Shown piece by piece: positions 1 through 5,555 of a stretch of DNA of 64,000 bases. A model generated the notes under the pieces. The model had not been told where the DNA came from. It worked only from the letters and a program-made list of their open reading frames with translations, and did no database searches. Numbering within the stretch: position 1 is the stretch's first letter; the number at the start of each line of letters is the position of its first letter. A program made the position numbers and the translations under genes. The DNA is taken from assembly GCF_002356295.1 (NCBI RefSeq), contig NZ_AP018042.1, positions 4,000,361-4,064,360 on the forward strand. Reading direction: 5' to 3'. The DNA comes from Labilibaculum antarcticum. GTDB lineage: Bacteria; Bacteroidota; Bacteroidia; Bacteroidales; Marinifilaceae.

Positions 1-420
1 CAAGCAATTTTCGTCCAGCAAAGTTTTAACAAGACAAGAGAACAAGTTTGGAATGCCATTACAGATTTGACGCAAATGCAACAATGGTTCTTCGAAAACA
101 TTCCCGATTTTATTCCCGAAGTTGGTTTCGAAACCAGGTTTAATGTAGATGCAGGAGAAAGACAATTTATGCACCTATGGAAAATTACAGAAGTTGTTCC
201 TTTAGAAAAAATTGTTTACGATTGGAGATATGAAAATATAAGTGGGGTTGGTACCCTTAGTTTTAAATTGTTGCAGGAGGGAGAACAAATTCTTCTTCGT
301 TTAACAAACAAAGGAATGGATTCATTCCCAAAGGATATACCTGAATTTTCTAGAGAGTCATGCAAAGGTGGCTGGCAATATTTTATTAACCAGAGATTAA
401 ACGAGTTTATAGAGAGCTAA
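1..420 (+). CDS. SRPBCC/AHSA1-like protein, 5' end cut by window edge
   Basis: The reading frame is open from base 1, so the start lies outside the window and about 139 codons remain. The visible residues begin in the first beta strand and helix of an SRPBCC fold (QSFNKTREQVWNAITD) and continue through the Trp-rich segment WKITEVVPLEKIVYDWRYE to a C-terminal helix, GGWQYFINQRLNEFIES. This resembles the AHSA1/START-like family of small hydrophobic-ligand-binding proteins. No catalytic residues can be assigned and the ligand is unknown. The stop codon overlaps the next gene's start, so the two are probably co-transcribed. Confidence 0.75.
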   Translation, partial: QAIFVQQSFNKTREQVWNAITDLTQMQQWFFENIPDFIPEVGFETRFNVDAGERQFMHLWKITEVVPLEKIVYDWRYENISGVGTLSFKLLQEGEQILLRLTNKGMDSFPKDIPEFSRESCKGGWQYFINQRLNEFIES

Positions 421-875
421 TGATAGATATTAAACGAACAAACTCCGATAGTAAAGATTTTATTGATCTTGTTAGATTACTTGATGCAGATTTGGTAATT
501 CGCGATGGAGAAGATTATGCTTTTTATTCTCAATTCAATAAATTAGATCAAATTAAGTATGTGGTTTTGGCTTATGACGATAAAGAACCAGTGGGTTGCG
601 GTGCCATAAAGGAATATGAGCCAAAGGTTATGGAAATAAAGCGAATGTTTGTATTGCCAGAGTGCAGAGGAAAGGGAGTTGCATCAAAAGTTTTACAGGA
701 ATTGGAAAAATGGGCCAATGAACTGTCTTTTGAAAAATGTATTTTAGAAACAGGAGTGAAACAACCCGAGGCAATTGGACTCTACAAAAAAAACAACTAC
801 CATTTTATTCCTAACTACGGACAATATACTGGCGTGAAGGAAAGTGTTTGTTTTGATAAAAAAATTACGAGCTAA
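420..875 (+). CDS. GNAT family N-acetyltransferase
   Basis: A 151-residue single-domain protein of normal GNAT length. The acetyl-CoA-binding motif A is clear around residues 73-90: EIKRMFVLPECRGKGVASKVL, with the pyrophosphate-binding R-G-K-G-V-A loop. The C-terminal part has the usual GLYKKNNYHFIPNYGQY segment (beta 6/7, with a Tyr that often serves as general acid). The substrate cannot be read from the sequence. The ATG overlaps the previous gene's TAA by one base (TAATG), pointing to translational coupling with the SRPBCC gene. No clear terminator follows before the repeat array. Confidence 0.88.
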   Translation: MIDIKRTNSDSKDFIDLVRLLDADLVIRDGEDYAFYSQFNKLDQIKYVVLAYDDKEPVGCGAIKEYEPKVMEIKRMFVLPECRGKGVASKVLQELEKWANELSFEKCILETGVKQPEAIGLYKKNNYHFIPNYGQYTGVKESVCFDKKITS

Positions 876-896: not shown

Positions 897-1110
897 GAAA
901 CAAATCGGATTTCGACCCGGATTTTAATCTACACACTAATAGTAACTACAATCACTAATCGATGAAAAAAAAATATCTGTGTGTTTTAATGCCTCAAAAA
1001 AAGGCATATATAGAGCAAACAATAGTACGAGGATCTTAAGTAATTACAAAATAATGGTTCTCTGTGGATAGAATAATTTATTGGTGATTGTTGTCGTGCA
1101 TTTATTAAAC
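897..1110 (+). repeat. Divergent first unit of the leader-like array
   Basis: This stretch has the same layout as the array that follows but little sequence identity with it. An imperfect hairpin near 902-924 (AAATCGG ... CCGGATTT) is followed by an ACTAAT-rich linker of about 38 nt. Then comes ATGAAAAAAAAA opening a 25-codon ORF at 962-1039 (MKKKYLCVLMPQKKAYIEQT plus five residues). Its length up to the next hairpin, about 214 bp, equals the array period. It may be an older, diverged copy. Whether the mini-ORF is translated is unknown. Confidence 0.5.
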
Positions 1111-2128
1111 AGAAAAAGCTTGGATCCCCACCCAAGCTTTTCTACTAACCACTAATTTACTAACCTAAATCTTTAATCTATGAAAAAAAACGGTTACCAG
1201 CCGTTTACATTACAAATATACGGCATTGTTTAGTTAAGTGCATTTAAAGGATGTTAAAGTATGCTAAAAGTTAAGGATTGATCCGGTTGATGTTATATCT
1301 GTAAATTATTACAAAGTATACAACACAGAAAAAGCTTGGATCCCCACCCAAGCTTTTCTACTAACCACTATTTACTAACCTAAATCTTTAATCTATGAAA
1401 AAACTTTTATTCTTTGTTCTACATTACAAACATACGGCATTGTTTAGTTAAGTGCATTTAACGGATGTTAAAGTATGCTAAAAGTCAAGGATTGATCCGG
1501 TTGATGTCATATCTGTAAATTATTACAAAGTATACAACACAGAAAAAGCTTGGATCCCCACCCAAGCTTTTCTACTAACCACTATTTACTAACCTAAATC
1601 TTTAATCTATGAAAAAAACGGTAACCAGCCGTCTACAGTACAAACATACGGCATTGTTTAGTTAAGTGCATTTAACGGATGTTAAAGTATGCTAAAAGTC
1701 AAGGATTGATTCGGTTGATGTCATATCTGTAAATTATTACAAAGTATACAACACAGAAAAAGCTTGGATCCCCACCCAAGCTTTTCTACTAACCACTATT
1801 TACTAACCTAAATCTTTAATCTATGAAAAAAACGGTAACCAGCCGTCTACAGTACAAACATACGGCATTGTTTAGTTAAGTGCATTTAACGGATGTTAAA
1901 GTATGCTAAAAGTCAAGGACTGATTCGGTTGATGTCATATCTGTAAATTATTGCAAAGTATACAACACAGAAAAAGCTTGGATCCCCACCCAAGCTTTTC
2001 TACTAACCACTATTTACTAACCTAAATCTTTAATCTATGAAAAAACTTTTATTCTTTGTTCTACATTACAAACATACGGCATTGTTTAGTTAAGTGCATT
2101 TAAAGGATGTTAAAGTATGCTAAAAGTG
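1111..2128 (+). repeat. Tandem array of five ~214-bp leader-like units
   Basis: Five head-to-tail units begin at 1111, 1327, 1541, 1755 and 1969 (periods 216, 214, 214, 214). Each opens with a hairpin, AAAAGCTTGG - ATCCCCAC - CCAAGCTTTT. Next is the leader CTACTAACCACTA...TTTACTAACCTAAATC, then an ATG (1180, 1395, 1609, 1823, 2037) with a short ORF, then about 110 bp of AT-rich spacer. ORFs 2 and 5 read MKKLLFFVLHYKHTALFS. ORFs 3 and 4 read MKKTVTSRLQYKHTALFS. ORF 1 is shifted by one extra A and reads MKKNGYQPFTLQIYGIV. Units therefore carry one of two alternative 5' ORF segments in a shared frame. The ORF starts resemble the first codons of SusC/TonB-dependent receptors, but this is an inference. 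No gene longer than this lies in the array. Confidence 0.9.
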
Positions 2129-2169
2129 TTATATTTTTGGTGCCTATAGATTTTATAAAATAAATAGTA

Positions 2170-2299
2170 AAAAAAAACCTAGGTCCCCACCCAGGCTTTT
2201 TTTAATCTAATCAATAACCTAAATCTAAAATCTATGAAAAACCTTTTTAATTTCGTTTCATGTTATGAATATACAAAAACCTTTGACGAAATGTTATAA
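2170..2299 (+). repeat. Divergent last unit of the leader-like array
   Basis: The hairpin A-run-CCTAGG - TCCCCAC - CCAGG-CTTTTTTT (2170-2203) keeps the TCCCCAC loop of the main units. Its stem differs on both sides, so pairing is retained through compensating changes. A leader TCTAATCAATAACCTAAATC leads to ATGAAAAACC at 2234 and a 21-codon ORF ending at 2299. The remaining sequence up to the ABC gene (2300-2486) shows no further repeat. This copy links the array to a broader, structure-conserved family rather than to a purely recent duplication. Confidence 0.6.
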
Positions 2300-2486
2300 T
2301 TAAATGTTAAAAATCCTTAATGCAATTAATTATTTAAGTTTTATCGAAGATACTTAAGGTCATATTCGAAAAATTCAGATCAGATTATTTTGTGGAATTT
2401 ATGCTTCATAAGATAGAACTTTTCCATTGCTCGAGGAATTTATCTAAATTAGACCATTAGCAAAAAATAAAATTCTATAATTGCCC

Positions 2487-5400
2487 ATGAATGAGTCAGT
2501 ACTAAATGCTGTAATGCAACTTTTCGCGATTATTGTTGATGAGCAACAGATTGGTTTTGAGGGCGTTGCCCGTAATGTCGTTTCTAAGTACTTAGAGAAG
2601 AGATTTAATAAAGAATGGCTTCATAAATATCTGGATAATTTCGACCGTTATTTAAGTGAATCCCATTACATTAAAGGAAATAAGGATACAATTAAAAATA
2701 AGCACAAGCAGGTTGCGGATGTTTGCTCAAAATTGGTTGAGGAGGTGGAGCAGGAACAGAAAGTATGGATAATGCTCCAATTGCTTGAATTTATTGATGA
2801 TTCAGAATTTACGGGTCCTGCAGAAATCGATTTTGTAAAGACCGTTTCGAAAGCATTTAAAGTCCCAAAAGATGAATTTGAATACAGTCTTCAGTTTATT
2901 TTGGGAACCGAATATACAATCCCTTTTAATCCGTATTTATTGATTATTGATGCTAATGAATCCTTTGAACATGAGGTCGTAAAGCATATTCTTAGGCCAA
3001 GATTGCGAGGTCGTTTATTTATCCTTCATTTGGAGAGTACCAATACTTTCCTGATGAAATATTTTGGAGAGTACAATCTTTTTCTAAACGGGCACAACAT
3101 TAAATTGGATCGTGCCTACATCTTGCCGTACGGATCAGTGATTCGAAGTCATAGAATTGACCCAATATATTATTCCCAGATTGTGTCGGTATTTATTGAA
3201 AGGAAAAATCATTCGGATATTCGTTTTGTAGCTAAAAATATTGAATTCAAGTTCCCGGGTTCTAATAATGGCGTTTTTCCAGTTAATTTTCATGTCGAGT
3301 CGGGACAACTGATTGGAATTATGGGCGGTAGCGGGACTGGTAAATCGACCTTGCTAAATGTTCTAAATGGGAATTTGCCTCTTAATCAGGGCGATATTTT
3401 TATTAATGGATATAATCTCCATAAAGATAAAGAAGAACTTGAGGGAGTTATCGGTTACGTTCCTCAGGATGATTTACTGGTTGAGGAATTAACCGTATAT
3501 CAGAATTTGTATTTTAATGCCAAGCTTTGTTTCGATAATTTAGATGATGAAACAATTGAGAATATCATAGATGATACCATTGAAAATTTTGATTTGGTTG
3601 AAGCAAGAGATTTAAAGGTTGGAGATCCGATTAATAAAGTATTGAGTGGCGGACAAAGAAAGCGTTTAAATATCGCACTGGAATTGATGCGGGAACCTTC
3701 AGTTTTGTTTGTGGATGAGCCCACCTCGGGATTATCAAGTATGGATTCGGAGAAAGTGATGTTGTTGCTGAAAAGGCAGGTTTTAAAGGGGAAATTGGTG
3801 ATGTGTAACATTCATCAGCCATCATCAGATATTTTTAAGCTATTGGACAAGTTGATCATTATGGATCAGGGTGGGAAAGTAATCTATTTTGGAAATCCGA
3901 TTGATGCAGTCGTTTATTTTAAAACGCAGAGTCTATATGTTAAAGCTGATGAAAGCGAATGCTTGACTTGTGGTAATGTGAATTCGGAGCAGATTCTTAG
4001 AATCGTGGAAAGCCGAATGATGAATGAATACGGTAAACAAATTCGTAAAAGGAAAAGAGGTTCCGATGAATGGTATGAACTGTACAAAGAGAATATTGAA
4101 TCGAAAAATCCGGTTAAGGAACCAAAGCGGAAAAGATTGATTCCAATAAATCATTTCAGTATTCCTAAACGAGCGGAGCAGTTGAAAATATATTTAGCGC
4201 GTGATGTAAAGGCTAAAATTAGTAATAAACAATACATTCTTATTACACTGCTGGAGGCTCCTATCTTAGCCGTGATATTGGGATATTTCACCAAATATAT
4301 CAGTGGCTCGGATGGCGATGCAAATGCTTATGTATTTTCGAATAATGAGAATATCCCCTCCTTTATTTTTATGGCAGTTGTGGTTTCTCTTTTCTTAGGC
4401 TTAATTATTTCGGCAGAAGAAATCCTTCACGATCGGAGAATTATGAAGAGGGAGTCGTTTTTGAATTTAAGCCGGTTTAGCTACTTAAACTCTAAGGTGA
4501 TCGTTATGCTGGTAATATCAGCAATTCAAACATTACTGTTTGTGTTAATCGCTAATACTATTCTTGAAATTAAAGGATTGACTTTAGAATATTGGTTGGT
4601 TTTATACACAGCATCAGCCTGCGCGAACATGATTGGTTTAAATTTGTCGGCAGCTTTGAATACTGTCGTGGCGGTTTATGTATCCATTCCTTTTATTTTG
4701 GTGCCACAACTATTGTTTTCTGGGGTAATCGTTAATTTTACCAAACTACATCCGGCCATAACCTCCCAAAAACATGTTCCGTTTGTAGGCGATTTAATGA
4801 CTTCGCGTTGGGCTTATGAGGCTTTGATCGTTGAACAGTTCAGAAATAATGATTTTGAAACTCAATTTTTTGAGCTTGAACAAAAAATGAGTGAGGCTTC
4901 TTTTCGCTCATCATTCTATATTCCGGAAATAAAGCAACGGTACCAAAATTGGTTGCGAACGGGGGATGATAAACAACTCATACTATTACAGAATGAATTC
5001 CAAAAAATAACCGATTTGTACTCATTGCCTGAGGGGCTGGAGTTTACCAAAAACGGTTTGACCAACTCTTCGGTAGAACTGCTTCAATGGATTGAGAAAA
5101 TAAAACAAAATGGATGGCTGGATTATAAAAAGGAATCAGATAAAAGAGATCAAGTTTATACAAACTTGTTGGCACAATACGGAGGTAAAAAGGAATTGTT
5201 TGATTACAAACAAAAACACCATAATGAGGCAATTGAACAGATTGTTTTGAATCGTAGAGAGGCAAATAAGATTGTTGCATTTAAAGGTGAATTGATTCAG
5301 TTAAAAGATCCTATATTTCAAATTCCACAAGACAAATTGGGCCGAGCTCAATTATTTGCATCGCAGAAACGAATAGGAAATTACCTTATTGATACTTTTT

Positions 5401-5555
5401 GGTTCAATGTTGTTATTGTATGGTTAACCAGCTTGTTTTTTTACGGTACACTTTATTTCGATGTATTAAGACGATTTATACTTATGATCGAAATATTATG
5501 GATCAAATTACTCCCTGAAGGTCACATTCGAATTAAGAGGAAGCGTCAATCGTAG
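2487..5555 (+). CDS. Large ABCG-like ABC transporter (ATPase fused to ABC-2 permease)
   Basis: About 1022 residues. The first 140 residues are helical and acidic and could be a TerB-like domain (weak). Residues ~220-480 form an ABC ATPase: Walker A GGSGTGKST (~280-288), signature LSGGQRKR (~386), Walker B VLFVDEP (~408) and H-loop NIHQPSSD, which is the ABCG/White-type arrangement. A CLTCGN pair follows near 490. The C-terminal half has ABC-2 membrane segments around 580-770, a long soluble insertion, and a final helix near the end. A single polypeptide with NBD before TMD suggests a homodimeric exporter; the substrate is unknown. ATG 2487 is chosen over the in-frame TTG two codons upstream. 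Confidence 0.85.
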   Translation: MNESVLNAVMQLFAIIVDEQQIGFEGVARNVVSKYLEKRFNKEWLHKYLDNFDRYLSESHYIKGNKDTIKNKHKQVADVCSKLVEEVEQEQKVWIMLQLLEFIDDSEFTGPAEIDFVKTVSKAFKVPKDEFEYSLQFILGTEYTIPFNPYLLIIDANESFEHEVVKHILRPRLRGRLFILHLESTNTFLMKYFGEYNLFLNGHNIKLDRAYILPYGSVIRSHRIDPIYYSQIVSVFIERKNHSDIRFVAKNIEFKFPGSNNGVFPVNFHVESGQLIGIMGGSGTGKSTLLNVLNGNLPLNQGDIFINGYNLHKDKEELEGVIGYVPQDDLLVEELTVYQNLYFNAKLCFDNLDDETIENIIDDTIENFDLVEARDLKVGDPINKVLSGGQRKRLNIALELMREPSVLFVDEPTSGLSSMDSEKVMLLLKRQVLKGKLVMCNIHQPSSDIFKLLDKLIIMDQGGKVIYFGNPIDAVVYFKTQSLYVKADESECLTCGNVNSEQILRIVESRMMNEYGKQIRKRKRGSDEWYELYKENIESKNPVKEPKRKRLIPINHFSIPKRAEQLKIYLARDVKAKISNKQYILITLLEAPILAVILGYFTKYISGSDGDANAYVFSNNENIPSFIFMAVVVSLFLGLIISAEEILHDRRIMKRESFLNLSRFSYLNSKVIVMLVISAIQTLLFVLIANTILEIKGLTLEYWLVLYTASACANMIGLNLSAALNTVVAVYVSIPFILVPQLLFSGVIVNFTKLHPAITSQKHVPFVGDLMTSRWAYEALIVEQFRNNDFETQFFELEQKMSEASFRSSFYIPEIKQRYQNWLRTGDDKQLILLQNEFQKITDLYSLPEGLEFTKNGLTNSSVELLQWIEKIKQNGWLDYKKESDKRDQVYTNLLAQYGGKKELFDYKQKHHNEAIEQIVLNRREANKIVAFKGELIQLKDPIFQIPQDKLGRAQLFASQKRIGNYLIDTFWFNVVIVWLTSLFFYGTLYFDVLRRFILMIEILWIKLLPEGHIRIKRKRQS

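Follow-up and report, generated by a model that had tools for sequence, protein, structure and literature searches.

A tandem array of probable minus-strand small-RNA genes with cores complementary to susC translation starts in Labilibaculum antarcticum

The window analysed here, a stretch of 64,000 nucleotides from Labilibaculum antarcticum (contig NZ_AP018042.1, positions 4,000,361 to 4,064,360), harbours a tandem array that most likely consists of small-RNA (sRNA) genes on the minus strand, whose shared core pairs with the mRNA starts of SusC-type TonB receptors and would thereby block translation. Each of the five principal units, U1 to U5, combines a TTAAC-repeat motif and a promoter box of the Bacteroidota -7 type with a variable 5' segment, after which come a single-stranded core and an intrinsic terminator. 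According to the proposed mechanism, the core would anneal to the translation start region of the receptor mRNAs and hinder initiation; the cell could in this way turn down many glycan importers at once, and the tandem copies would provide dose under one shared control signal.

Tandem Repeats Finder places the repeat at 1109-2127, with a period of 214, 4.8 copies and 94% matches. The hairpins recur at spacings of 216/214/214/214, followed by a step of 201 to a diverged copy. An earlier sequence-only reading of this DNA had described five near-identical units with these periods and a diverged unit on each side; both descriptions hold, the end units U0 and U6 being located at ~900-976 and ~2166-2246, respectively (Table 1). 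Its observation of two alternative 5' segments, one in U2 and U5 and the other in U3 and U4, is likewise confirmed by unit-to-unit comparison: U3 and U4 differ at 2/214 positions, U2 and U5 show one difference in the 161 positions compared, and where U2 departs from U3, at 13 positions, all but one lie within or adjoin the variable segment. As had also been recognized, the loop TCCCCAC is retained in U6 despite alterations in both stem arms, and a terminator-like stem is still formed there. The mini-ORFs of the earlier description are readable on the plus strand and YKHTALFS ends units 2-5, but unit 1 differs in frame and lacks YKHTALFS. The end units deviate from the canonical design. A TAnnTTTG box was looked for in U6 and not found; orthologous end units of other genomes of the genus Labilibaculum display TATATTTA at this place. 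U0 groups with end units that look intact elsewhere (TACTTTTG box, strong stem) and is thus regarded as a decayed member of the GNAT-end lineage.

Table 1. Features of the array in window coordinates. All units lie on the minus strand; the transcription starts of the predicted sRNAs are presumed from promoter spacing.
Feature	Position	Strand	Remarks
Flanking gene, presumably a GNAT-type acetyltransferase (by inspection)	420..875	+	syntenic marker, outside the system; adjoins the array in 6 other genomes
U0 (adjoins GNAT gene)	900..976	-	without TAnnTTTG box; weak hairpin 919-906 only
U1 predicted sRNA	1113..1208	-	type B segment with hairpin 1206-1188; core ~1188-1153; terminator 1142-1113
U1 -7 promoter box TATATTTG	1213..1220	-	upstream motif 1272-1221
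U2 predicted sRNA	1329..1422	-	type A segment; core ~1403-1368; terminator 1358-1329
U2 -7 promoter box TATGTTTG	1427..1434	-	upstream motif 1486-1435
U3 predicted sRNA	1543..1636	-	type B segment with hairpin 1634-1616; core ~1617-1582; terminator 1572-1543
U3 -7 promoter box TATGTTTG	1641..1648	-	upstream motif 1700-1649
U4 predicted sRNA	1757..1850	-	type B segment with small hairpin 1848-1830; core ~1831-1796; terminator 1786-1757
U4 -7 promoter box TATGTTTG	1855..1862	-	upstream motif 1914-1863
U5 predicted sRNA, ~94 nt	1971..2064	-	type A segment; antisense core ~2045-2010; terminator 2000-1971; putative start
U5 -7 promoter box TATGTTTG	2069..2076	-	
U5, the 52 bases that precede the -7 box, including the conserved TTAAC-repeat motif	2077..2128	-	49.4 bits, against at most -4.9 at 556 control sites
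U6 (adjoins ABC gene)	2166..2246	-	core + terminator 2203-2170; 81.1 bits
Flanking gene, presumably a large ABC transporter (by inspection)	2481..5555	+	syntenic marker, outside the system; adjoins the array in 11 other genomes

Three independent signs place the small-RNA gene on the minus strand: the promoter, the T-run terminators and the complementarity of the core to susC starts. Between 860 and 2480 there are 10 terminator-like sites, against 0.6 expected from shuffles, every one of them on this strand, and TAnnTTTG occurs there once in each of the units U1-U5 (2076, 1862, 1648, 1434, 1220), whereas the plus strand has a single site in 861-2480. Folding energy cannot decide the strand, as either strand can form the hairpin and the plus strand, too, is more stable than its shuffles (z -3.8 and -4.6). 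A scan for sigma-70 type promoters, which is uninformative for this phylum, returned 1 site versus 8.7 expected. The array had originally been read as plus-strand units of hairpin, leader and mini-ORF, that is, on the wrong strand; the missing downstream gene is to be expected if the units are minus-strand genes.

The promoter was surveyed in 109 model matches from 42 sources, of which 104 were kept after removal of 4 without an anchor and 1 with a short flank; one of the units of L. antarcticum is counted twice among the 104 owing to overlapping loci. TAnnTTTG, the canonical sigma-ABfr promoter, is present within 100 nt upstream in 83 of these units and lies 25-30 nt before the CAT in 73. It accompanies 5/7 units of the window and 10/16 units of the genome, and is lacking in the other six of the 16, U6 among them, and in U0. 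Upstream of the promoter, 39 non-redundant units share a conserved stretch of 37 nt in which TTAA(C) recurs at intervals and at which a regulator of the array would presumably act. A profile of this motif was derived from other genomes, with 23 non-redundant units; it gives 27-52 bits at the ten L. antarcticum units with a TAnnTTTG box and no more than -4.9 at 556 control TAnnTTTG sites. When the window and 20 further stretches were scanned freely, 7 places exceeded 12 bits: U1-U5, one place upstream of another sRNA unit (C1:5158747) and one that is unexplained. On the minus strand at L151:9659 a 15.7-bit match to the upstream motif is accompanied by neither a TAnnTTTG box nor a known unit. 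Common descent of the units contributes to the conservation of the motif, but these very units have diverged in their terminators and 5' segments.

The core, TTTTTTCATAGATT..AGATTTAGGTTAG, was matched against the starts of the 32 genes of this genome that score above the SusC family cut-off, each start being read mechanically as the most upstream ATG, so that some may be wrong. Duplexes with the core of U5 have a median energy of -17.1 kcal/mol at these starts versus -10.2 at 308 mechanically chosen control genes (p 4e-13). The separation persists against the 88 controls starting MK or MR (p 1.4e-9), and none of 100 dinucleotide shuffles of the core matched the difference between SusC genes and controls. 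The energy dips at the start codon alone (-16.6 vs -8.8 to -11.2 elsewhere), and the duplex covers this codon in 30/32 susC starts. Energies of -15 or lower are found at 22 of the 32 SusC genes and at 25 of the 308 controls; these values come from a duplex program that ignores the folding of either RNA, and some of the core is sequestered in the structures predicted for the sRNAs. The pairing is imperfect, as an exact complement of the whole core was found at none of the susC starts. Exact antisense targets were accordingly rejected as a candidate: the pattern ACCTAAAN{0,20}ATGAAAA has 35 matches, against 11 for a reversed control, and 12 of the 35 are the sRNA units themselves, the sole bearers of the full leader. 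The leaders had been said to resemble the 5' ends of SusC/TonB-receptor genes. This link is real and takes the form of antisense complementarity: the leader looks like the beginning of susC because the minus-strand core is antisense to it.

The terminator bears the marks of a selected RNA structure, as the retained loop of U6 had been taken to indicate. Across 92 distinct rows, 96.8% of the cells of the stem are paired and changes on both sides occur at 12/12 pairs, a result reached in 0/500 shuffles, in an alignment that was fitted to the model and thereby favours pairing. A different hairpin, CGGCTGGTTACCG, forms the terminator of a single-copy unit at C1:4981429-4981506 (L020). It is also found in the type B 5' segments (window 1848-1830, 1634-1616 and 1206-1188), in 11/104 units altogether; in type B units it is followed by a U-run and could represent an early terminator or a 5' cap, perhaps of chimaeric origin.

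Homologous units were sought elsewhere with a covariance model, R1, built from an alignment of 16 units from L. antarcticum. Six of these belong to the window and five to a second locus, and these eleven came from the sequence-only reading, from DNA similarity or from a position beside such matches; others were taken from a list of matches to the FopS family of Bacteroides sRNAs, so that agreement between R1 and FopS is partly circular. In L. antarcticum the model finds 16 matches at E <1e-4, the next one lying at 0.08. Among 40 relatives, this genome included, 28 match at 0.01; within the family 50/56 genomes match at 0.001, 23 of them with four or more copies. Class-wide, 13/295 genomes match at E 0.001 under stricter filters. 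The exact core pattern occurs in 29 stretches, all from Marinifilum, Labilibaculum, Ancylomarina or Marinifilaceae. Weak R1 matches lie on the opposite strand of two susC starts (C1:2798724-2798792 and C1:3415524-3415571), where the model recognizes the target region itself.

Several other loci were encountered. The second locus, C1:1986348-1989330 (L003, L005), contains five further units on the plus strand, arranged in two clusters around a MarR-like gene; three of them are spaced by ~300 bp, and the -7 box of B2 and B3 has TTTA, not TTTG. Beside it lies a repeat-rich, partly palindromic stretch (L003:1860-2360). Two diverged units stand in tandem at C1:2047458-2047740 (L002). L195, L199, L202 and L203, which belong to other families of the class, each show a single RNA with a terminator and a core resembling TTTTTCATA(G/A)TTTAGGTT, with no TAnnTTTG at the same place; they are perhaps further sRNA families.

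Synteny of the array extends over 12 genomes from five genera, which have 3-7 units each at this place, some arrays being broken by contig ends; the ABC gene borders it in 11 other genomes and the GNAT gene in 6 of those 11. In a tree of the units, which leaves out a fragment at a contig end (G008_L073_1), the end units group by position across species, whereas many of the internal ones cluster with others from their own species or lineage: the former are orthologous, the latter homogenized. The earlier idea of a recombination scar of a receptor locus was rejected on this synteny and on the intact, multi-copy state of the arrays in the 12 genomes.

Regulatory RNAs had also been among the explanations initially put forward. 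This suggestion is supported by the antisense match to susC, the preserved pairing and the homologues; its plus-strand reading is not. A bank of leader peptides or mini-genes, in which hairpin, leader and a ATGAAAAAA mini-ORF are translated from the plus strand, had been considered too and is the least credible of the alternatives. It is true that ATGAAAAAA after a CTAA-rich leader resembles a gene start and that several antisense ORFs look like signal peptides, e.g. MKKLLFFVLHYKHTALFS. Nonetheless, the ORFs have no constant frame with respect to the promoter block (the gap modulo 3 divides 74 units into 34/26/14), their lengths scatter from 3 to 36 aa over 104 units, and their sequence is that of promoter and antisense core, the constant C-terminal part coinciding with the minus-strand promoter region; the plus strand, moreover, offers no terminator-like site and one TAnnTTTG against five. 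It is also very unlikely that the units are remnant repeats or selfish palindromes of the MITE or REP type, with a terminator and a susC-like leader by chance. Dispersed and tandem copies, a palindromic hairpin and a variable copy number would suit such elements, but stem sequences differ between loci with pairing kept, core and upstream motif are conserved whereas the stems and the segment between core and motif vary, end units from different species correspond as orthologues at a single syntenic place, and the antisense match to susC starts would be left to coincidence. Improbable, although less so, is a target-addressed bank in which the variable 5' segments act as second seeds steering the copies to different susC genes. 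Four genomes from two genera (L. antarcticum, G001, G003 and G017) contain both type A and type B, and one case is striking: the type A unit (U5/U2) reaches -35.3 on the susC start L096, a value attained by 0/60 segment shuffles. On the other side, for 10/15 entries tested at p 0.05 the segments alone did not favour SusC starts over controls, those of type B were worse (p 1 and 1), and the minimum energy beats all shuffled segments in 1/11 units tested. A role of the variable segments as target selectors is not supported in general.

A closer contest concerns true orthology with the FopS sRNAs, that is, vertical descent from an RF04319 ancestor with weak scores due to divergence alone, which has only slightly less than an even chance of being correct. 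The units can be aligned over their full length with the RF04319 consensus, the core being near-identical over 30 nt; they are multi-copy and address the same type of target, and the six better-scoring ones of the window rank 2, 3, 4, 8, 9 and 15 among the 27 RF04319 matches of the whole genome at E <=10. However, they score 24.4-29.5 bits against a gathering cut-off of 56; the best score in the genome is 29.6 bits, with 0 matches above the cut-off. Sub-threshold FopS matches are weak on their own, as they occur in 8/14 control genomes as well. More generally, no match above any Rfam gathering cut-off was found at the loci scanned. What the two have in common is precisely what the target dictates, and convergence would therefore look the same as descent. 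Loci above the FopS cut-off, which were found in 7/247 genomes, presumably Bacteroidaceae and kin, carry the TAnnTTTG box 12 nt before the CAT in 18 of 20 cases (the exceptions are L211, without the box, and L221, without an anchor and with its match near a contig end). As the box lies mostly 25-30 nt before the CAT in the array family, its units should possess ~13-18 further 5' nucleotides, the exact starts being estimated. The absence of a detectable RRM_1 gene also speaks against orthology: RbpB-type RRM_1 domains were searched for and found neither in L. antarcticum nor in the 8 further genomes of the genus. Across the family, R1 matches number 4-18 in the 14 genomes that lack RRM_1 and 0-3 in the 10 that have it; outside the family, 7 genomes are without both, as judged with an R1 model that is biased to its own kind. 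This contrast may reflect a single evolutionary event. Hfq, also searched for, was found in 0/25 genomes.

The reading preferred here, tandem minus-strand sRNA genes directed at susC starts, would have several implications. Regulation of glycan importers by FopS has so far been described for gut Bacteroidaceae and is tied to RbpB; a FopS-like layer is now encountered in marine Marinifilaceae, in tandem arrays and in genomes without a detectable RRM_1 or Hfq gene. If the interpretation is right, the circuit does not need RbpB, whose place another factor might take, the arrays offer a natural experiment on how sRNA dose and concerted evolution work, and the TTAAC-repeat motif provides a handle for finding the regulator of the sRNAs. 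A more far-reaching model is speculative and, taken as a whole, rather unlikely: SusC would be under post-transcriptional control independent of RbpB and Hfq, exerted by tandem, co-regulated, 5'-extended FopS-like sRNAs; unequal recombination would amplify and homogenize the units, with copy number acting as repressor dose; and two old 5' modules, one of them a hairpin followed by a U-run, would be kept side by side in the arrays, giving copies different stability or targets.

Groups of near-identical sRNAs are known from other bacteria. The LhrC copies of Listeria stand in tandem. The array units share with LhrC, OmrA/OmrB and the Neisseria siblings the presence of several near-identical sRNAs, and differ from them in sequence, phylum and targets; all of these are named as multicopy sRNAs in PMC11697453. 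Among Bacteroides RNAs, BTnc231 (RF04180) reaches 20-25 bits at the array units against a threshold of 80.4, and rteR (RF04181) 30.5 bits against 72 at unit 2047b, the second of the tandem pair of L002. GibS likewise aims a 5' seed at translation starts; unlike the array units it is driven from PM2, a non-canonical promoter whose boxes lie at -10 and -30, and it has other validated targets; it is set apart here on its description in PMC7366714. In the open-access literature searched, no paper on tandem sRNA arrays of this kind was found.

The closest known system is FopS (RF04319), which comprises 14 copies in Bacteroides thetaiotaomicron that repress SusC translation, are bound and antagonized by the RRM protein RbpB, and share partial sequence with GibS (PMC11697453). 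Like FopS, the array units are multi-copy, possess a near-identical core, an intrinsic terminator and a TAnnTTTG promoter, and are complementary to susC translation starts. Unlike FopS, they fall below the RF04319 cut-off (24-30 vs 56 bits), and their promoter lies mostly 25-30 rather than 12 nt before the CAT, which would entail a longer variable 5' end. From promoter to T-run, U1-U5 are predicted at ~94-96 nt with an estimated start; FopS RNAs measure ~65-70 nt. They are also preceded by the 37-nt upstream motif and organized in tandem, a word that is absent from the main text of PMC11697453, and no RRM_1 gene equivalent to RbpB was found in the genome of the array. The array units would thus work like FopS and yet, by score and by RbpB, are not formal members of that family; what is new with respect to FopS is the lack of a detectable RbpB, the 5' extension, the tandem arrays and the shared 37-nt upstream motif.
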